This document shows positions 31,052 through 62,961 of a stretch of 64,000 nt of DNA, one piece after another. The DNA is from Micrococcus flavus. GTDB lineage: Bacteria; Actinomycetota; Actinomycetes; Actinomycetales; Micrococcaceae. Made by a program: the position numbers and the translations under genes. The notes beneath the pieces are model-generated. The model ran no database searches. It was not told the origin of the DNA and saw only the letters and a program-made list of their open reading frames with translations. Position 1 is the stretch's first letter. Each line of letters begins with the position of its first letter. Location: positions 62,001 through 126,000 of the forward strand of contig NZ_JACHMC010000001.1 of the NCBI RefSeq assembly GCF_014204815.1. Direction: 5' to 3'.

Positions 31052-31540
31052 ATGGCGGAGATGCCGTCGACGGTCACCGGGGTGACCGACCACGCGCGCG
31101 CGCTGCGCCGGATCGTCCGTCTCCACGGCGAGGTACGGTCGCAGATGCGCCGCCTCATGGGCCTGAAGGACACGGACTACGCCGCGCTCGCGCTGCTGAT
31201 GCGCCGGCCCATGGGGCCCACCGAGCTGGCCCGCGCCCTGCATCTGAGCACCGCCTCGGCCACCGCGGTGGTGGACCGCCTGGTGGCCACCGGACACGCC
31301 GTGCGCGAGCCGCACCCGCAGGACCGCCGCCGCACCGTGGTGCGCGCCGTCGAGTCCTCGCGCGAGTGGGCCATGGCGGAGGTCCAGCACATGGTGGGCC
31401 TCGTGGGGGAGGTCCTCGCGGACGCCTCCGAGGAGGAGTCCGCCGCGGTCCTGAGGTTCCTCGAACGCACCGCCGCCCACATGGAGGCCTGGCGGGACGA
31501 CCTCGCCGTCCGCGCCGACCGGCGGGAGGACGCCGCATGA
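31052..31540 (+). CDS. crtR: MarR family regulator of the carotenoid operon (CrtR-like)
   Basis: A 162-residue winged-helix MarR-family protein. Recognition helix and wing are seen as P-T-E-L-A-R-A-L-H-L-S-T-A-S-A-T-A-V-V-D and H-P-Q-D-R-R-R-T-V. It opens the carotenoid operon and overlaps crtE by 4 nt. In Corynebacterium glutamicum a MarR-type CrtR divergent from crtE represses carotenoid genes and responds to GGPP; the same role is inferred here from position only. GGAGGAGAGG precedes the ATG. Confidence 0.8.
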   Translation: MAEMPSTVTGVTDHARALRRIVRLHGEVRSQMRRLMGLKDTDYAALALLMRRPMGPTELARALHLSTASATAVVDRLVATGHAVREPHPQDRRRTVVRAVESSREWAMAEVQHMVGLVGEVLADASEEESAAVLRFLERTAAHMEAWRDDLAVRADRREDAA

Positions 31541-32628
31541 GCCCCCGCCACGACGCCGTCGCCGCCGTGCGCGCCGAGCTCGCCGACGTCTTCGCCCGCC
31601 GCCCGCTGGGCGAGGACGCCCCCGCCTCCTTCCACCTGATGTGGGACCGGCTGCGCGAGCAGACCGACGGCGGCAAGCTGGTCCGCCCGCGCCTCGTGGA
31701 CCTCGGCTATCGCACCGCCGCCGCCGACCCCGGCTCTCCCCGCCCGCGGTCCGTGGCCCGCCTCGGCGCCGCCTTCGAGCTGCTGCACGCCGCGCTGATC
31801 GTCCACGACGACGTGATCGACCGGGACATGGTCCGCCGCGGCCGACCCACCGTCGCGGAGCTCTACCGCCGGGAGGCGGCGCAGGCGGGGGCGCCGGCGG
31901 GGGAGGACGCCCACCTGGGCCGCTCCGCCGGGGTGATCGCCGGGGACGTCCTGCTGACCGAGGCGTTCCGTCTGGCCGTCACGTGCGCCGAGGACCCGGC
32001 CCGCGGCGCGGCGGCGGCGTCCGCGGTGTTCCGGGCCGCGACGGCCGCCGCCGCCGGTGAGCTGGAGGACGTGCTCTTCACGCTGCACCGCCACGCCGGG
32101 GAGCACCCGCCCACCGAGCGCATCCTCACCATGGAGCGGCTCAAGACCGCCGGCTACACGTTCGAGGAGCCGCTGCGCGCGGGGGCCCTGCTGGCCGGCG
32201 CCGCGCCCGCGCACGCGGACGCCCTCGCGGAGGCCGGCGCGCTGCTGGGCATCGCCTACCAGGTGATCGACGACGTCCTCGGCACCACGGGCGACCCCGA
32301 GCGCACGGGCAAGGCCGACGACGCCGACCTGCGCGAGGGCAAGGCCACGCTCATCACCGCCCACGGCCGGCGTGATCCCCGCGTGCGGGCGGCCCTCGAG
32401 CGCGTGACGCGCGCCGAGCGCGACGGCGCGGACCTGGCGGAGCTGGCCGAGGCGGTGCACGAGGCCCGCGAGGCGCTCGTGGCGGCCGGCTCGGTGGCCC
32501 ATGCCACCGACGTCGCCGCGGACCTCGTGGACCGCGCCCGCGCCCTGCTGGACGGGCTCCCGCTGGGGCCCACCGAGCGCGCCGAGTTCGTGGCCACGTG
32601 CCACCACATCCTGCATCGGGAGGCCTGA
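31537..32628 (+). CDS. crtE: geranylgeranyl diphosphate synthase
   Basis: Polyprenyl synthase condensing IPP with allylic diphosphates to GGPP. The 363-residue protein has the first aspartate-rich motif D91-D-V-I-D95 followed by R-R-G-R, and the second D245-D-V-L-G. K/R residues for IPP binding are in G-G-K-L-V-R-P-R. The start overlaps the MarR stop (ATGA). First enzyme of the C50 carotenoid route in this operon. Confidence 0.92.
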   Translation: MSPRHDAVAAVRAELADVFARRPLGEDAPASFHLMWDRLREQTDGGKLVRPRLVDLGYRTAAADPGSPRPRSVARLGAAFELLHAALIVHDDVIDRDMVRRGRPTVAELYRREAAQAGAPAGEDAHLGRSAGVIAGDVLLTEAFRLAVTCAEDPARGAAAASAVFRAATAAAAGELEDVLFTLHRHAGEHPPTERILTMERLKTAGYTFEEPLRAGALLAGAAPAHADALAEAGALLGIAYQVIDDVLGTTGDPERTGKADDADLREGKATLITAHGRRDPRVRAALERVTRAERDGADLAELAEAVHEAREALVAAGSVAHATDVAADLVDRARALLDGLPLGPTERAEFVATCHHILHREA

Positions 32629-32630
32629 GC

Positions 32631-33611
32631 ATGATCCGCACGCCCCGCCCGGCCGCCGTCGGGCACGGACGCGACGCGGCCCGGGACACGGACCTGGGGC
32701 TGTACACCGCCGCCGCCCTGGACGCGGCGTCCCGCGTGATCGGGCGCTACTCCACGTCCTTCTCCTGGGCCTGCCGGACGCTGCCGTCGGCCCAGCGCCG
32801 GGACATCGCGGCGATCTACGCGATGGTCCGGGTGGCGGACGAGATCGTGGACGGCACCGCGGGCGAGGCCGGCGTCCCCGCGGACCGCGTGGCCGCCGCG
32901 CTGGACGCGTACGAGGCCGCCTGCGAGGAGGCCATGGCCACCGGGTTCGCCACGGACCTCGTGCTGCACGCGTTCGCGGACGTGGCCCGCCGGCACGGGA
33001 TCACCCCCGCGCTCACCCGGCCCTTCTTCGCCTCCATGCGCGCGGACCTCACGGTGGCCGAGCACGGCGCCCGCTCCCTCGAGGAGTACATCCACGGCTC
33101 GGCCGAGGTGGTGGGGCTGATGTGCCTGCAGGTGTTCCTCTCCCTGCCGGGCACCCGGGCCCGGACGGAGGCGGAGCGGGAGCGCCTGCGCGCGTGCGCG
33201 TCCCGGCTCGGGGCGGCCTTCCAGAAGGTCAACTTCCTGCGCGACCTCGCCGCGGACCACGACGCCCTGGGCCGCACCTACTTCGAGGGCGCCACCCCGG
33301 AGGCGCTCACCGAGGAGCGCAAGACCGCCCTGCTGGCGGACCTGGACGCAGACCTCGACGCCGCCCTGCCGGGCATCCTCGCGCTCGACCCGCGCGTGGG
33401 ACGCGCCGTCCTGCTGGCCCACGGCCTGTTCGCCGAGCTGGCCCGCCGGATCGAGGCCACCCCTGCCGCCGAGCTCGCCCGCCGTCGTGTGCGCGTGCCC
33501 GACCCCGTCAAGGCCGCGATCGCCGCCCGCGTGCTGACCGCCTCCCCCGTGGGGGTGGGCCGTCGCGGCCGACCCCTGCCGTCCGAGACCCTTAGGAGCA
33601 CCCCCGCATGA
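32631..33611 (+). CDS. crtB: phytoene synthase
   Basis: Joins two GGPP molecules to phytoene. The 326-residue protein shows the squalene/phytoene synthase motifs: Y-S-T-S-F-S-W-A, first Asp-rich V-A-D-E-I-V-D, Y-I-H-G-S-A-E-V-V-G and second F-L-R-D-L-A-A-D-H-D followed by G-R-T-Y-F. The ATG at 32631, two bases after the crtE stop and behind GGGAGG, is preferred to the upstream in-frame start. The 3' end overlaps crtI by 4 nt. Confidence 0.93.
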   Translation: MIRTPRPAAVGHGRDAARDTDLGLYTAAALDAASRVIGRYSTSFSWACRTLPSAQRRDIAAIYAMVRVADEIVDGTAGEAGVPADRVAAALDAYEAACEEAMATGFATDLVLHAFADVARRHGITPALTRPFFASMRADLTVAEHGARSLEEYIHGSAEVVGLMCLQVFLSLPGTRARTEAERERLRACASRLGAAFQKVNFLRDLAADHDALGRTYFEGATPEALTEERKTALLADLDADLDAALPGILALDPRVGRAVLLAHGLFAELARRIEATPAAELARRRVRVPDPVKAAIAARVLTASPVGVGRRGRPLPSETLRSTPA

Positions 33612-35353
33612 GCACCTCCCCACGCCCCGACGCGCCCGCCCCCCGCCCTGACGAGGCCGCAGCGGACGCCGGCGGGCGCCGCGTCGTCGTGATCGGCGGC
33701 GGCTTCGCCGGCCTGGCCACCGCCGGCCTGCTGGCCCGCGACGGCCACCGCGTCACCCTCCTGGAGAAGAACGCGGAGCTCGGCGGCCGCTCCGGACGCT
33801 GGTCCGCGGAGGGCTTCACGTTCGACACCGGCCCGTCCTGGTATCTCATGCCCGAGGTGATCGACCGCTGGTTCCGACTCATGGGCTCCTCCGCCGCCGA
33901 GGCGCTGGACCTGCGCCGCCTCGAGCCGGGCTACCGCGTGTACTTCGAGGGCCATCTGGACGAGGAGCCGGTGGACGTGGTCTCGGACCGGGAGTCCGCC
34001 GCGGCCCTGGCCGAGCGGCTCGAGCCCGGCGCGGGCGCCCGCCTGCGCGCCTACCTGGACTCGGCGCAGGAGGTGTACGCCCTGGCCAAGCGGCGGTTCC
34101 TCTACACCGACTTCCGCGACCTCACCGAGCTGATCCGGCCGGACGTGCTGCGCGCCCTGCCGGCCCTGGTGCCCGGGCTGCTGGGGAACCTGCGGGACCA
34201 CGTGGCCGCCCGCTTCGAGGACGAGCGCCTGCGCCAGGTGCTCGGCTACCCGGCCGTGTTCCTCGGGACCTCCCCGGGCCGCGCCCCCTCGATGTACCAC
34301 CTCATGTCCCACCTGGACCTCGAGGACGGCGTCCAGTACCCGATGGGCGGGTTCGCCGCGCTCGTGGACGCCATGGCGGAGCTCGCCCGGGACGCCGGCG
34401 TGGAGATCGTCACGGAGGCCGAGGTGGGCGCGGTCGAGGTGCAGGAGACCCCCGCCCCGCGCGGCCGCGCGGCCCGCGCCCTTGAGCGCCTGCCCCGCCC
34501 GTGGGAACCCCGCACCCCGCGCGGCGCCCGCCGCCGGGCCGGCGCGGTGCGCGCCGTCGCGTGGACGGACGGCACCGGGGCGCGCCGGCGGACCGAGGCG
34601 GACGTCGTCGTCGCCGCCACGGACCTGCACCACGTGCAGACCGCCCTGCTGCCGCACCACCAGCGCGTCACCGAGGCCGCGTGGGAGTCCCGCGACCCGG
34701 GTCCCTCCGCCGTGCTGGTGTGCGTGGGCGTGCGCGGGCGGCTGCCGCAGCTGCTGCACCATACGCTGCTGTTCACGCGGGACTGGGAGGACAACTTCCG
34801 CCGGATCGAGGAGGGGGAGGACCTCACCGATCAGACCTCGATCTACGTCTCCATGACCTCCGCCACCGACCCGTCCACCGCGCCCGAGGGGGACGAGGCC
34901 CTGTTCCTGCTGGTGCCCGCCCCCGCGGAGACGGGCTGGGGCCGCGGCGGCGTCCGCACCCCCGACGTGGATGAGCCCGGCGACCCGCGGGTGGAGGCCG
35001 TGGCGGACCGCGCCCTGGCCCAGCTGGCCCGCTGGGCGGACATCCCGGACCTCGCCGAGCGGATCGTGGTGCGCCGCACGTGGGGCCCGGCGGACTTCGC
35101 CGCGGACGTGCACGCGTGGCGCGGCTCCCTGCTGGGACCGGGACACACCCTGCGGCAGTCGGCCCTGTTCCGCCCGCCCGTGCGCGACGCGCGGGTGGAC
35201 GGGCTCGTCTACGCCGGGTCCTCGGTGCGTCCGGGCATCGGGGTGCCGATGTGCCTGATCTCCGCGGAGATCGCCCGCGAGCAGGTCTCCGGGGTGCCCG
35301 CCGGCTCCGAGGCGGCGCTGCACGCGGGCCCACGACCCGGCGCCGCGGCCTGA
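33608..35353 (+). CDS. crtI: phytoene desaturase
   Basis: A 581-residue FAD-dependent bacterial-type desaturase taking phytoene to lycopene. The N-terminal dinucleotide fold is V-V-V-I-G-G-G-F-A-G-L-A-T-A with the ribose-binding E in L-L-E-K-N, followed by G-G-R-S-G-R. The C-terminal CrtI signature is present in G-L-V-Y-A-G-S-S-V-R-P-G-I-G-V-P-M. An insertion of about 35 Arg/Pro-rich residues near 285-320 makes it longer than usual. The stop overlaps the next start by one base. Confidence 0.93.
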   Translation: MSTSPRPDAPAPRPDEAAADAGGRRVVVIGGGFAGLATAGLLARDGHRVTLLEKNAELGGRSGRWSAEGFTFDTGPSWYLMPEVIDRWFRLMGSSAAEALDLRRLEPGYRVYFEGHLDEEPVDVVSDRESAAALAERLEPGAGARLRAYLDSAQEVYALAKRRFLYTDFRDLTELIRPDVLRALPALVPGLLGNLRDHVAARFEDERLRQVLGYPAVFLGTSPGRAPSMYHLMSHLDLEDGVQYPMGGFAALVDAMAELARDAGVEIVTEAEVGAVEVQETPAPRGRAARALERLPRPWEPRTPRGARRRAGAVRAVAWTDGTGARRRTEADVVVAATDLHHVQTALLPHHQRVTEAAWESRDPGPSAVLVCVGVRGRLPQLLHHTLLFTRDWEDNFRRIEEGEDLTDQTSIYVSMTSATDPSTAPEGDEALFLLVPAPAETGWGRGGVRTPDVDEPGDPRVEAVADRALAQLARWADIPDLAERIVVRRTWGPADFAADVHAWRGSLLGPGHTLRQSALFRPPVRDARVDGLVYAGSSVRPGIGVPMCLISAEIAREQVSGVPAGSEAALHAGPRPGAAA

Positions 35354-35688
35354 TGTACCTGGCCGCACTGCTCCTGGTCAGCGGCTGCTTCCTCCTCATC
35401 GACGCCCGCTGGCGGCTCGTGCTGTTCTCCGGGACCCCGCGCCGGGCCGCCGCGGTGCTCGTGGCGGGCGTGGCATTCTTCCTGGCGTGGGACCTGGTGG
35501 GGATCGCCGCGGACGTCTTCTGGCACGGCGCCAACGAGGTGTCCGTGGGCCTGTTCCTGGCGCCGGAGCTGCCCGTGGAGGAGGTCGTGTTCCTGTGGGC
35601 GCTCTGCCACCAGACGCTCGTCTACGTGGAGGGCGCCCCCCGGCTGCTGGCCTGGGCGCGGAACGCACGGGACGGAGTAGGGTCATGA
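35353..35688 (+). CDS. lycopene cyclase subunit, pair 1, first subunit
   Basis: A 111-residue three-helix membrane protein of the small heterodimeric lycopene cyclase family (CrtYc/Ye/Yg type). Diagnostic features are D-A-R-W-R-L near residue 18, W-D and L-P-V-E-E in the last helix. It is about one third identical by eye to the gene at 36919. In C. glutamicum the crtYe-crtYf pair lies at this place, between crtI and the prenyltransferase. It works with the overlapping next gene. Whether it makes epsilon, beta or gamma rings cannot be read from sequence. Confidence 0.85.
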   Translation: MYLAALLLVSGCFLLIDARWRLVLFSGTPRRAAAVLVAGVAFFLAWDLVGIAADVFWHGANEVSVGLFLAPELPVEEVVFLWALCHQTLVYVEGAPRLLAWARNARDGVGS

Positions 35689-36041
35689 CATACCTGCTGA
35701 TCAGCCTGCCGTTCCTGGCCGTGGCCGGCCTCGTGCTGGCCGTGGCGGGACACCGGGGCCGACTGACCCGGCGGGTGCGCCTCGGCGCCGCGGCGGCCCT
35801 GGTCCTCCTCGTCCTGCTGACGGGCGTCTTCGACTCCGTCATCATCGGGCTGGGGATCGTCGACTACACCGGGGCCAACATCGCCGGCGCCCGCATCGGG
35901 CTCGCCCCGGTGGAGGACTTCCTCTACCCGATCGCCGGCCTGGCCCTGCTGACCGGGCTCTGGACCCTCGTCCGGGACCCGCGGGCACACGAGGAGAAGA
36001 CCGGCCGGGGGACGCCGGAGGAGCTGGAGGACACCGCGTGA
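35685..36041 (+). CDS. lycopene cyclase subunit, pair 1, second subunit
   Basis: A 118-residue membrane protein, partner of the preceding gene (CrtYd/Yf/Yh type). It carries the conserved V-F-D-S-V-I-I-G-L-G-I-V-D-Y and G-L-A-P-V-E-D-F-L-Y-P segments, which form the second half of the active site in fused cyclases. Overlaps both neighbours by 4 nt, so translation is coupled. The charged tail after residue 95 is cytoplasmic. Confidence 0.85.
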   Translation: MTYLLISLPFLAVAGLVLAVAGHRGRLTRRVRLGAAAALVLLVLLTGVFDSVIIGLGIVDYTGANIAGARIGLAPVEDFLYPIAGLALLTGLWTLVRDPRAHEEKTGRGTPEELEDTA

Positions 36042-36922
36042 TCCGCACCCTGTTCTGGGCGTCCCGCCCGCTGAGCTGGGTCAACACGGCCTACCCGTTC
36101 GCAGCGGCGGCGCTGCTGGCCGGCGGGCTGCCGTGGTGGCTCATTGCCCTTGGGACCGTGTTCTTCCTGGTGCCCTACAACCTGGCCATGTACGGCATCA
36201 ACGACGTCTTCGACTTCGAGTCCGACCTGCGCAACCCGCGCAAGGGGGGCGTGGAGGGCTCCGTGCTGGCCGATCCGGCGGTCCGTCGCCGGGTGCTGGT
36301 CTGGTCCTGCCTGGTCCCGCTGCCGTTCGTGGCCGTCCTGGCCGGCTGGTCGGTCCTGCGCGGGGAGTGGGCCGCCGTCGGCGTGCTGGCCGTGTCCCTG
36401 TTCGCCGTGGCCGCGTACTCGTGGGCGGGGCTGCGGTTCAAGGAGCGCCCCTTCCTCGACGCCGTCACCTCGGCCACGCACTTCGTCTCGCCCGCCGTGT
36501 ACGGCCTCGTGCTCGCCGGGGCCTCCTTCACGGGGGAGCTGTGGGCGCTGCTGGCCGGCTTCTTCCTGTGGGGCATGGCCTCCCAGATGTTCGGCGCGGT
36601 GCAGGACGTGGTCCCGGACCGCGCGGGCGGGCTGGCCTCCGTGGCCACCGTGCTCGGCGCCCGGCCCACCGTGTGGACGGCCGCCGCCCTCTACGCCGGG
36701 GCGGGCCTGCTGATGCTGGGCACGCAGTGGCCCGGACCGCTGGCCGCCCTGTTCGCCGTGCCCTACCTGGGCAGCACGCTGCGCTTCGCCGGGATCACGG
36801 ACGCCACGTCCGGGCAGGCGAACCGCGGCTGGCGCACCTTCCTCTGGCTCAACTACCTGACGGGGTTCCTGGTGACCATGCTGCTGATCTGGTGGGCGTT
36901 CGAACGGGGCATCCTCGGATGA
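36038..36922 (+). CDS. crtE2: UbiA-type prenyltransferase, lycopene elongase
   Basis: A 294-residue polytopic membrane prenyltransferase homologous to CrtEb/CrtE2, which adds two dimethylallyl units to lycopene to give C50 flavuxanthin-type products. The first Asp motif is N55-D-V-F-D-F-E-S-D63 and the second D-V-V-P-D-R-A. About eight helices. GTG start overlapping the cyclase stop. It is flanked on both sides by cyclase subunit pairs. Confidence 0.9.
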   Translation: MIRTLFWASRPLSWVNTAYPFAAAALLAGGLPWWLIALGTVFFLVPYNLAMYGINDVFDFESDLRNPRKGGVEGSVLADPAVRRRVLVWSCLVPLPFVAVLAGWSVLRGEWAAVGVLAVSLFAVAAYSWAGLRFKERPFLDAVTSATHFVSPAVYGLVLAGASFTGELWALLAGFFLWGMASQMFGAVQDVVPDRAGGLASVATVLGARPTVWTAAALYAGAGLLMLGTQWPGPLAALFAVPYLGSTLRFAGITDATSGQANRGWRTFLWLNYLTGFLVTMLLIWWAFERGILG

Positions 36923-37245
36923 CGTACCTGCTCGTGCTCCTGGGCGTGCTCGGCTGCATGGCCCTCACGGACGCCCGCTGGCGGCTGTTCCTGTGGCGTC
37001 GGCCCGTGGCAGGGGCGGTGGTCCTGGCCGCCGGCCTCGCCTACTTCCTGTGGTGGGACGTGCGGGCGATCGCCGAGGGGATCTTCCTGCACCGCGACTC
37101 ACCGCTGATGACGGGGATCATGCTGGCCCACCAGCTCCCCCTCGAGGAGGCGTTCTTCCTCCTGTTCCTCAGCTACCTCACCATGGTGCTGTTCACGGGC
37201 GCCGTGCGGCTGCTCGAGCACCGCGCAGCGAGGTGCGCACCGTGA
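36919..37245 (+). CDS. crtYg: lycopene/C50 carotenoid cyclase subunit, pair 2, first subunit
   Basis: A 108-residue three-helix subunit with D-A-R-W-R-L-F-L and Q-L-P-L-E-E. Its place directly after the prenyltransferase matches crtYg of the Micrococcus luteus sarcinaxanthin cluster. With crtYh it would cyclise the C50 intermediate to gamma rings. Overlaps crtE2 and the next gene by 4 nt each. The symbol is given from position and order. Confidence 0.85.
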   Translation: MTYLLVLLGVLGCMALTDARWRLFLWRRPVAGAVVLAAGLAYFLWWDVRAIAEGIFLHRDSPLMTGIMLAHQLPLEEAFFLLFLSYLTMVLFTGAVRLLEHRAARCAP

Positions 37246-37634
37246 CCTTCTGGGAGCTCAACGCCGTGTTCCTCGGCCTCGGGCTGGGGGTGCTGCTGGC
37301 CGCGGCCCTGGTCGGGCGGGTGCGCGCCCGCCACGTGGGGGCGATCCTGCTGACGACCGCCGCGCTCTGGGTGCTCACCGCCGTGTTCGACAACGTCATG
37401 ATCGCCTCCGGGCTGTTCGACTACGGCGGCCACGCCCTGGCCGGGGTGCGCGTGGGGCTCGCGCCGATCGAGGACTTCGCCTACCCGCTCGGCTCCGCCC
37501 TGCTGCTGCCGGCGGTGTGGCTGCTGCTGACGGGGGACCGGCGGCGCCGTCGTCGTGAGGGGGACCGGGGGCGCGGCGCCCCGTCCCCGTCCCCGGCCCC
37601 CGCTTCCCCGACTGTGCCGGAGCGGGCGGAATGA
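37242..37634 (+). CDS. crtYh: lycopene/C50 carotenoid cyclase subunit, pair 2, second subunit
   Basis: A 130-residue partner subunit carrying V-F-D-N-V-M-I, L-F-D-Y and G-L-A-P-I-E-D-F-A-Y-P. GTG start overlapping the stop of the previous gene. The tail from about residue 98 is Arg- and then Pro/Ser-rich and differs completely from that of the pair 1 subunit. Position matches crtYh of M. luteus. Confidence 0.85.
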   Translation: MTFWELNAVFLGLGLGVLLAAALVGRVRARHVGAILLTTAALWVLTAVFDNVMIASGLFDYGGHALAGVRVGLAPIEDFAYPLGSALLLPAVWLLLTGDRRRRRREGDRGRGAPSPSPAPASPTVPERAE

Positions 37635-38269
37635 GCCCCTCGGACGCGTCGCATCCCCCCCGGAGGCGCACACTCGGCGGGAGGGTCCTCGCCGGACTCA
37701 TCCCCGCGGACGTGCTGCGGCTGCTCGGTCTGCTGATCGTGCCCGCGGCCGGCGCCGTGGCCGGCTGGCCGAGCGCCGCCGCCATGTTCCTGGTGTTCGG
37801 CGGCCAGTGGCTGCTGCGCTGGCTGGCCGGCGGGAGCCTGCTCGACTGGACCGGGCAGGTCCTGCTCCTCGCGGCCGGCTGGGCCAGCGCGATCGGCCTG
37901 TACCACCGGATCGAGGGACTGGACCTGGTCATGCACGCCGCCGTCACCGGCGTGGTCACGGGGCTGGTCGCCGTCGTGGTGCGCTCCGCCCTGCGCCGGC
38001 GCGGCCGGACCGGCGGCCCGGTGACCCCGGCCGAGGCCGTCCGCACGCTGGGCCCTGTGATCTGCGTGCTGGGCCTGGCCGCGGCGGGCACGGCGCTCGG
38101 GGTGGTGTGGGAGGTCGCCGAGTGGTGGGGCCACCACGAGGTCACGGAGGAGATCGGCGTCGGCTACGACGACACCCTCGGCGACCTCACCGCCGACCTC
38201 GTCGGTGCGGTGACGGCGGCCGTCGTCGCGGTCGCCTCGGTGCACTCCGTGCGGCAGGGTGCCCGGTGA
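37631..38269 (+). CDS. membrane protein in the carotenoid operon (YjdF/DUF2238-like)
   Basis: A 212-residue membrane protein with about six helices. The stretch V-W-E-V-A-E-W-W-G and G-Y-D-D-T-L-G-D-L-T-A-D-L-V-G-A is like the conserved core of YjdF/DUF2238 proteins, whose function is unknown. It overlaps crtYh and the glycosyltransferase by 4 nt, so it is an integral part of the operon; a role in carotenoid membrane handling or modification is a guess. Confidence 0.72.
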   Translation: MSPSDASHPPRRRTLGGRVLAGLIPADVLRLLGLLIVPAAGAVAGWPSAAAMFLVFGGQWLLRWLAGGSLLDWTGQVLLLAAGWASAIGLYHRIEGLDLVMHAAVTGVVTGLVAVVVRSALRRRGRTGGPVTPAEAVRTLGPVICVLGLAAAGTALGVVWEVAEWWGHHEVTEEIGVGYDDTLGDLTADLVGAVTAAVVAVASVHSVRQGAR

Positions 38270-39057
38270 GCGGGCCTGCGGCGGGCGGCGCACGCCCCGA
38301 GCCCCTGACCGCGCGCACCACGGTGTCCGTGGTGGTGCCCGTCCTCGACGACGCCGACCACCTGCGCGCGTGCCTCGCCCTCCTGGCCCGGCAGACCCGC
38401 CGCCCGGACGAGGTGGTCGTGGTGGACAACGGCAGCACGGACGACTCCGCCGCCGTGGCCCGCGCCGCCGGGGCCCGGGTGATCCACGAGCCCGTCCGCG
38501 GCATCCCCTCCGCCGCGGCCGCCGGCTACGACGCCGCCCGCGGGGACCTCATCCTGCGCTGCGACGCGGACTCGCGCGTGCCCGAGGACTGGGTCGAGCG
38601 GATCGTCGCGCGCTTCGCCGCCCAGCCGGAGATGCTGGGGCTCACCGGCCCCGGGGTCTTCTACGACCAGCCCGGGCTCCTGAGCCGGGTGCGCTCGGAC
38701 GCGTACACCGCGGCCTACCGGTGGGTCGGCGGCGCGGCCGTGGCCGGCACCCCGCTGTGGGGCTCCAACTGCGCCCTGCGGGCCGAGGCGTGGCGTGACG
38801 TGCGGGACCGCGTCCACCGTCACCGCGCGGACGTCCACGACGACTTCGACCTCAGCTTCCAGCTGCTGCTCCACGCCCCGGGCTGCACCCGGTTCGACGC
38901 CGGCCTCCGCGTGGGTGCGGCCGGGCGGCTCTTCTCCTCCCTCGACGCGCGGGTCCGTCAGGGCCGCATGGCCGTCACCACGATCCGCCTCAACTGGGCG
39001 GAGCTGTCCCCGGGCCTGCGCTGGGTGCGTCGGGCGCAGGCCGCCGCCCGCCCCTGA
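38266..39057 (+). CDS. crtX: family 2 glycosyltransferase, probable carotenoid glucosyltransferase
   Basis: A 263-residue GT-A fold glycosyltransferase: V-S-V-V-V-P-V-L-D-D, V-V-D-N-G-S-T-D and the metal-binding L-R-C-D-A-D-S near 95-100, with a later H-D-D-F-D-L-S acceptor/base region. As the last gene of the carotenoid operon it is the likely CrtX that glucosylates the C50 carotenoid (sarcinaxanthin glucosides are known from Micrococcus). The GTG start overlaps the previous stop. No membrane helix is obvious. Confidence 0.83.
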   Translation: MSGPAAGGARPEPLTARTTVSVVVPVLDDADHLRACLALLARQTRRPDEVVVVDNGSTDDSAAVARAAGARVIHEPVRGIPSAAAAGYDAARGDLILRCDADSRVPEDWVERIVARFAAQPEMLGLTGPGVFYDQPGLLSRVRSDAYTAAYRWVGGAAVAGTPLWGSNCALRAEAWRDVRDRVHRHRADVHDDFDLSFQLLLHAPGCTRFDAGLRVGAAGRLFSSLDARVRQGRMAVTTIRLNWAELSPGLRWVRRAQAAARP

Positions 39058-61882: not shown

Positions 61883-62961
61883 TGAGGGCTGGCCGGCCGG
61901 CGCAGCGGCGCCGTCGCCTCCATCGCCGCCTCCACGAGGATCGGCCGGAAGCCGAGGGCCTCGTTGACGTCCAGCATGGGCCGGTTCTCCTCGGCGTTCC
62001 AGGTGATGATCGCGCGGGCCTCGGGCATCGCCTCGCGCAGCGCGATCAGGTTCGCGGCCTTCACGCGCATCCCCAGCCGGTGGCCGCGGTGCTCGGGCAG
62101 CACGATGGTGTCCCACTGGTCGACGACGCCGCTCGTCCGGGAGCGCGGCGCGACGAGTTCATTGAGCCCGACGATCCGGCCGGTGCCGCGGTGGCGGACC
62201 ACGGCGCGGAAGAGGCGCCCGGTCAGGAGGATCTGCTCCTCCCTGCGGCGGACGCGCTCCGCATCCCACGTCTGCTCCGCGACGGTCAGGTCCCCGGCGG
62301 GCACGTCCGTGGACATGCGCGCCTTGAGGACGGCGAGGTCGGCGCGCAGGGACGCGTCGGCGTCGCCCTCCCAGGCGTGCACCTCGTAGTCCTCCGAGTG
62401 CCGCTCGGCCTCGCCGAGGGCCTCGGCCGGGTCGACGGCGGGCGCGGCGACGTCGTACCGGCTCACCCGCTCGACCTGGCCGAGGGAGAACCCGTAGGAC
62501 TGGGCGAGGCGCACCCCGGGGTGGTCGGCCGGGACCGTGCCGGCCCTGCTCGAGGGGGTGAGGACCCGTGCACCGGGAACGGGCGGCGGGGTCATGGGCC
62601 AGGTCTCGAACCGGGTCTTGCCGGTGGTGTCCTGGACGAGCCTGTCGGCCAGTGCGCGGCCATGGCCCCGTCCGCGGTGCCGCGGGTGGACGTAGACGTT
62701 GAGGGCGGCCGCGTCAGGGTCGTCGACGTGGTTGATCAGGACGCGGGCGTAGCCGACCGCCTCGCCGTCGACGTACGCCAGGTAGCGGCGCTGGGTGTAG
62801 TCCGTCTCGGCGCGGGCCGCGATGAGGGTGTCCTCGGGGGAGTCGTCCCACTCGGTGGTGCCGAGCAGCTCGTGGTTGTACTCGTCTCCGAGGCGGCAGT
62901 AGGCCCGCCAGTGGGGGTCGTCCGACGAGGCGGGCAGGGGGAACTCGATGATGTCAGGCAT
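61864..62961 (-). CDS. double-domain GNAT acetyltransferase
   Basis: A 365-residue protein with two GNAT domains: the first with V-Y-V-H-P-R-H-R-G-R-G-H-G near residue 92, the second with I-V-L-P-E-H-R-G-H-R-L-G-M-R near 300. The mycothiol synthase-like organisation is seen, but other motifs of MshD are lacking. Its C-terminal Q-N-R-L-Q-E and stop are from family A copy 5. The ATG at 62961 starts the conserved part; CTTTCTGCAGAAAG, a perfect palindrome, lies at 62972-62985. Confidence 0.83.
   Translation of the reverse strand: MPDIIEFPLPASSDDPHWRAYCRLGDEYNHELLGTTEWDDSPEDTLIAARAETDYTQRRYLAYVDGEAVGYARVLINHVDDPDAAALNVYVHPRHRGRGHGRALADRLVQDTTGKTRFETWPMTPPPVPGARVLTPSSRAGTVPADHPGVRLAQSYGFSLGQVERVSRYDVAAPAVDPAEALGEAERHSEDYEVHAWEGDADASLRADLAVLKARMSTDVPAGDLTVAEQTWDAERVRRREEQILLTGRLFRAVVRHRGTGRIVGLNELVAPRSRTSGVVDQWDTIVLPEHRGHRLGMRVKAANLIALREAMPEARAIITWNAEENRPMLDVNEALGFRPILVEAAMEATAPLRRPASPQNRLQE

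Follow-up and report, generated by a model that had tools for sequence, protein, structure and literature searches.

Positions 62,001 to 126,000 of contig NZ_JACHMC010000001.1 of Micrococcus flavus, a stretch of 64,000 nucleotides from a 2.55 Mb genome referred to here as the window (genome G000), include a carotenoid gene cluster in which two complete heterodimeric carotenoid-cyclase pairs lie one on each side of crtE2, all four cyclase genes being intact (35353-37634, + strand). The upstream pair (pair 1) is formed of Ya1 (35353..35688, 111 amino acids) and Yb1 (35685..36041, 118 amino acids) and the downstream pair (pair 2) of Ya2 (36919..37245, 108 amino acids) and Yb2 (37242..37634, 130 amino acids). 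Between them, crtE2 (36038..36922, 294 amino acids) encodes a predicted UbiA-type lycopene elongase, or C50 prenyltransferase (PF01040, 89.5 bits; NF009608, 449 bits), which shares 94% identity with its M. lacusdianchii counterpart and 81-82% with that of genome G006, which we take to be M. luteus NCTC 2665 (just as G1000 is presumably Corynebacterium glutamicum ATCC 13032). As crtI and Ya1 share 1 base, and successive genes from Ya1 to Yb2 share 4, both pairs stand inside a single, tightly packed run of genes. An assembly error is unlikely to lie behind this arrangement, since the same order recurs in G003 and G009 and thus in three genomes.

The presence of four small cyclase-subunit genes here, in the order crtI-pair-crtE2-pair, had been proposed in an earlier note on this DNA and is confirmed by the open reading frames and by matches to TIGR03462 (lycopene cyclase domain), whose cut-off of 39.4 bits is cleared by all four subunits (Ya1 47.7, Yb1 46.4, Ya2 54.1 and Yb2 43.2 bits); in a protein scan of the four, the cut-off of Pfam PF18916 is cleared by Yb1 only (34 bits). 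The P-x-E-E / P-x-E-D motif is the defining feature of heterodimeric cyclase subunits: its P, E and E are kept in 52/52 Ya rows of our alignments and its P, E and D in 52/52 Yb rows, both window pairs included. Conservation in at least 95% of the 52 rows is reached at 15 Ya and 11 Yb positions, and neither window pair departs from it at any of them. Yb1 has the PxED motif intact, with FDS where FDN is usual. Pair 1 also has residues of its own, found in all five Micrococcus pair-1 rows (D55, H87 and L90 in Ya1; S51, I53 and G91 in Yb1); at these six positions at least 75% of the other rows differ, each pair-1 letter occurring in 1-9 other rows as well. On these sequence features, the four genes are heterodimeric (CrtYcd/CrtYef/CrtYgh-type) carotenoid cyclase subunits with a predicted cyclase activity. 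A search of PDB sequences with the Ya profile (E up to 1; Yb not searched) returned no solved relative, and models of the Ya1 and Yb1 structures (mean predicted local distance difference test scores, pLDDT, of 84.4 and 81.6; three main helices each) are uninformative on function.

Pair 1 and pair 2 share 44% identity in Ya and 36-38% in Yb. In separate trees of the two subunits (52 rows), pair 1 falls beside the upstream pair of Kocuria (support 93 for Ya and 98 for Yb), and pair 2 groups with M. luteus, G013 (the nearest other genus in our rpoB tree), Ornithinimicrobium and some Arthrobacter (98 and 83). A tree of both subunits joined (48 of the 52 rows, omitting G821, AcidMAG, G885 and G912) unites pair 1 with the Kocuria upstream pairs (100/98) and pair 2 with the M. 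luteus CrtYg/CrtYh group, G013 and kin (100/98), the seven Micrococcus downstream pairs forming a clade of their own (95/95); long branches are flagged in it for Tersicoc, Clavib, Sporosarc, Brevib and Arhombi. Approximately unbiased (AU) tests reject a single clade of all 12 Micrococcus pairs (p-AU 5.06e-7) and a single clade of the six pairs of the species with both (p-AU 3.86e-74), results that, as the program warns, long branches may pull. By clade and shared synteny, pair 2 is the ortholog of M. luteus CrtYg/CrtYh, and by its sister relation and identical gene position pair 1 is predicted to be a Kocuria-type C50 cyclase. Position by itself does not follow phylogeny, as two loci show: in both Arthrobacter rhombi (L043) and Arthrobacter sp. 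H35-D1 (L041), the pair at the upstream position resembles pair 2.

Four known systems bear comparison with this locus. The sarcinaxanthin cluster of M. luteus (crtE-B-I-E2-Yg-Yh, with crtX) is the same locus between the same flanks, with counterparts of pair 2 and of the two genes that follow it, but has no pair between crtI and crtE2 in G006. In Kocuria C50 clusters (crtE-B-I-Y-Y-E2), the pair between crtI and crtE2 corresponds to window pair 1. The decaprenoxanthin cluster of C. glutamicum (crtE-cg0722-B-I-Ye-Yf-Eb) shares the upstream pair position and the enzyme family, but has one pair only, and its CrtYe/CrtYf fall outside both groups, at 28-41% identity to the four window subunits. The earlier note's account of these layouts, with the pair before crtEb in C. 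glutamicum and after crtE2 in M. luteus, holds in G1000 and G006, and both places are indeed occupied in the window; the upstream pair is like that of C. glutamicum in position (between crtI and the elongase gene) and not in sequence, the trees ruling out an identity of pair 1 as CrtYe/CrtYf by the 100/98 branch that excludes C. glutamicum. In Dietzia sp. CQ4, lbtABC (the C.p.450 beta-cyclase) combines a heterodimeric C50 cyclase with a linked elongase, one subunit being fused to the elongase, a likeness drawn from the description in PMC6393565. PMC12500396 gives the K. rhizophila cluster as crtE, B, I, Yg, Yh, E2, with crtX lacking; the Yg/Yh label used there masks a clade different from that of M. 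luteus CrtYg/CrtYh, the K. rhizophila row of our trees being from another strain (L033). No proven product of the Kocuria pair was met in a brief look at the literature that covered part of the same paper.

Within Micrococcus, crtE2 was found in 9/11 genomes searched. Both pairs are present in three of the 11 (the window, G003, presumably the counterpart of M. lacusdianchii locus L032, and G009), the downstream pair only in four (G006, G007, G008 and G010) and the upstream pair only in one (G002); another, G001, has the upstream pair on a contig whose end falls inside crtE2. The last two, G004 and G005, lacked matches to crtE2 and to Ya alike, and may be species without the yellow C50 pigment. 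Among 80 named loci with crtE2 (the best 80 of at least 588, some ending at contig boundaries), one has both pairs (L032), two the downstream pair only (L036 and L039) and 77 the upstream pair only. Wider surveys were samples of each group, and scoring mostly stopped at 12 first-look candidates from each genome, so that a second copy could escape; six genomes rescored in full gave the same result. Of 395 genomes of the family, 231 have a Ya match and six have two (G000, G003, G009, G170, G348 and G363); beyond the three Micrococcus none of the 395 has two pairs in one cluster, the second pair of G170, G348 and G363 being on another contig than the crt cluster. These last three belong to one genus of the family (L203-L208), and their second pair lacks crtE2 on the stretch examined. 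The class sample of 394 genomes gave a Ya match in 161; besides the window, two matches occur only in G680 (one strong, one weak) and G629 (two weak), each on different contigs. A match was found in 63 of 221 Corynebacterium genomes; the double matches of G873 and G994 are split hits of one gene, and each of G824 and G945 has a first cyclase subunit at two separate places, both giving strong matches. Two pairs in a single cluster thus occur only in three Micrococcus species within the genomes searched. Nor did we find a description of two cyclase pairs in one cluster in the PubMed Central literature (accessible portions of PMC6393565, PMC12697074, PMC12500396, PMC3598387, PMC2889829 and PMC11596720), a collection outside which most subscription papers lie. 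The earlier note had raised the case of a published M. luteus locus already having the six-gene order; a single pair is given in those portions of PMC6393565 and PMC12697074, and a single pair is present in G006.

The remaining genes of the cluster lie on the same strand. Upstream of pair 1 are crtE (31537..32628), encoding a polyprenyl (geranylgeranyl diphosphate, GGPP) synthase (PF00348, 147.9 bits), crtB (32634..33611), a candidate phytoene synthase gene recognised by its position, synteny and sub-cut-off matches to the squalene/phytoene synthase family, with an uncertain start (the mechanical open reading frame starts at 32598), and crtI (33608..35353), encoding a phytoene desaturase (TIGR02734, 532 bits). 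A MarR-family regulator gene (31052..31540; PF12802, 46.5 bits) lies directly upstream of crtE and overlaps it; it also occurs in both of the other double loci, in G002 and G007 and at some Kocuria loci, and was not found at the crt loci of G006, G008 and G010. Pair 2 is followed by a gene for a 212-amino-acid protein (37631..38269), probably a membrane protein as judged by eye, for which neither Pfam nor NCBIfam gave a match (E up to 0.1). This gene is found in nine of 49 scanned loci, exactly the nine that have the downstream pair, and sits between pair 2 and a gene for a family-2-type glycosyltransferase (38266..39057, start codon chosen by us; all matches to family-2 glycosyltransferase models below cut-off); given its linkage to the pair, it possibly encodes a carotenoid-linked membrane protein without a name. 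The glycosyltransferase, a CrtX candidate, is likewise encoded in 9/9 loci with the downstream pair and was not found in G002; five Kocuria loci searched gave no downstream pair, 212-amino-acid protein gene or glycosyltransferase gene. Window Ya2 and Yb2 are respectively 66-68% and 64% identical to the G006 subunits. A promoter and terminator scan found none, such a scan being uninformative in a GC-rich genome.

Gene order is conserved across the eight Micrococcus loci for which both flanks are available: a NUDIX gene, in some loci the MarR gene, crtE-B-I, pair 1, crtE2, the block of pair 2, 212-amino-acid protein gene and glycosyltransferase gene, then SDR and helicase genes. Within this frame, G002 lacks exactly the second block and G006, G007, G008 and G010 lack exactly pair 1, the flanks being the same in each case; no remnants of pair 1 were found between crtI and crtE2 of these four genomes (tblastn, E 1e-8). 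An rpoB tree built on 3510 columns from 19 genomes has the branching (G002,(G009,(G003,G000))) with support of 100 and leaves the order of G006/G007 and G008/G010 unsettled (56). G001, represented by a fragment only, was left out of this tree and placed separately by a 926-base rpoB fragment, which puts it outside G004 and eight other pigment-gene species (97). Pair 1 is carried by the clade of G002, G009, G003 and G000 and by G001. In trees of the other crt genes (a chosen subset of 24 of 44 rows for crtE and 25 of 46 for the others), Micrococcus holds together for crtE (99) and crtI (86), as does the genus minus G001 for crtE2 (97). A hybrid cluster made of a Kocuria-type front and an M. luteus-type back was considered and rejected: crtE, crtB and crtI of the double species group inside Micrococcus (crtB weakly), not outside it as a hybrid predicts, so that no join is needed. 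With G+C contents of 69.7-76.1%, both pairs lie close to the window average (74.2%), so that their composition gives no sign of transfer.

Two observations concern crt clusters elsewhere. In the trees of crtB, crtI, crtE2 and each cyclase subunit, the crt locus of Ornithinimicrobium laminariae (L039) falls with G013, which suggests cluster transfer; no crtE match was found on the Ornithinimicrobium stretch examined. Sporosarcina beigongshangi and an Acidobacteria metagenome-assembled genome (L047 and L056) carry an Arthrobacter-like C50 crt cluster, reflecting either cross-phylum transfer or contamination.

Full-length comparisons among the three double species give ratios of nonsynonymous to synonymous differences (pN/pS) of 0.18-0.32 for Ya1, 0.21-0.42 for Ya2, 0.25-0.47 for Yb2 and 0.14-0.19 for crtE2, pN being significantly lower than pS (p < 0.05) in 11 of the 12 comparisons of these genes (p values for Ya1 of 3e-5, 4e-8 and 0.012). 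For Yb1, the comparison of the window with G002 gives 0.41 (p 2e-7).

We consider it probable that the window carries a single C50-carotenoid operon with two anciently diverged cyclases, both present in the Micrococcus ancestor and later lost in opposite ways, pair 2 making gamma rings and pair 1 being a second C50 cyclase. By analogy with known C50 pathways, CrtE, CrtB and CrtI would produce lycopene, to which CrtE2 would attach two C5 units, yielding flavuxanthin; ring closure would then fall to membrane-bound Ya-Yb heterodimers. M. luteus crtE2YgYh expressed in Escherichia coli yields a single sarcinaxanthin peak, and C. glutamicum crtYeYfEb a mix of sarcinaxanthin, sarprenoxanthin and decaprenoxanthin, according to PMC6393565. 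Since pair 2 is the ortholog of CrtYg/CrtYh, gamma rings are expected of it, and it very probably serves as the gamma-cyclase of sarcinaxanthin synthesis, with the product probably glucosylated by the linked glycosyltransferase. Pair 1, the sole heterodimeric cyclase found in G002, presumably works there, and would act on the same substrate in the double species, with a ring preference of its own or in part redundantly. The double state most likely goes back to the Micrococcus ancestor: three species would have kept both pairs, the M. luteus group would have lost pair 1, and G002 would have lost pair 2 along with the 212-amino-acid protein gene and the glycosyltransferase gene.

Several results weigh against this reconstruction. 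The sister genus G013 has pair 2 only, so that an ancestral double state requires several losses. G001 stands beside G005 in the rpoB fragment tree with support of only 42, is a metagenome-assembled genome with 6% contamination, and shifts place among the crtE, crtB, crtI and crtE2 trees, lying outside the genus in the last; the crtB tree keeps Micrococcus together weakly (23). The stem of Micrococcus pair 1 is long (0.94 per column in the joined tree), so that the function of the pair may have changed. Finally, pN/pS of Yb1 among the double species (0.64-0.72, or 0.64-0.81 over the first 95 columns) is not significantly below 1 (Fisher p 0.12-0.34). Taken with the G002 comparison, this suggests that pair 1 has long been constrained and that Yb1 may now be less so, making partial redundancy possible.

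The absence of pair 1 from G013 and from G006, G007, G008 and G010, together with the apparent mobility of related crt loci between genera (as for O. laminariae with G013), would also fit horizontal transfer, in which the ancestor of the G002/G000/G003/G009 clade received pair 1 from a Kocuria-like donor at a locus already holding pair 2; the double state would then be derived, and G002 would later have lost pair 2. Pair 1 nonetheless tracks the rpoB tree within that clade and is found in the low-branching G001, and any such transfer must be old, because pair 1 is less like its Kocuria counterpart (55-60% identity for Ya1, 40-49% for Yb1) than is crtE2 (79-81%); we regard this history as unlikely, though deserving of serious attention. 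Much the same weight goes to the idea that pair 1 is a relic being lost in the double species while pair 2 does all the cyclisation. The ratios of Yb1 in all three comparisons agree with it, as does the fact that the M. luteus group manages without pair 1, but both pair 1 frames are intact in three species, with conserved residues kept and gene overlaps in place, and Ya1 is clearly constrained, making such decay a doubtful explanation.

A division of substrates, a possibility raised in the earlier note, with one pair closing the rings of C40 lycopene and the other those of C50 carotenoids to give cyclic products of both lengths, is improbable. The family does include C40 cyclases, CrtYc/CrtYd (PMC2889829), and pair 1 shows the fixed residues listed above; however, the nearest relatives of both pairs lie in clusters with a C50 elongase, and G002 has pair 1 as its sole pair beside crtE2. 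The idea that one pair was recently duplicated in tandem around crtE2, for which gene content only would speak, can be set aside almost entirely: the pairs are 36-44% identical, and three clades joining them are rejected (p-AU 5e-7, 4e-74 and 3e-12), in agreement with the earlier note, which held that they are not a recent copy.

One further reading can be put forward tentatively, namely that two pairs with different ring specificity, sharing one flavuxanthin pool, might yield mixed-ring pigments, with each cyclase setting one of the rings for instance, of a kind made by neither M. luteus nor Kocuria; were this so, the reciprocal losses would be switches of the pigment of the genus. The two pairs are distinct and of old origin, and the locus that unites them, rare in the genomes searched, is common to three species. 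It connects the two known C50 layouts, with the pair before or after the elongase gene, through a living double state at one conserved place, and cautions that neither gene position nor the labels Ye/Yf and Yg/Yh track phylogeny. With sister species that have resolved the double state in opposite ways, Micrococcus offers a natural comparison set (both pairs, the first only, the second only) that would let the ring specificity of heterodimeric C50 cyclases be traced to sequence.

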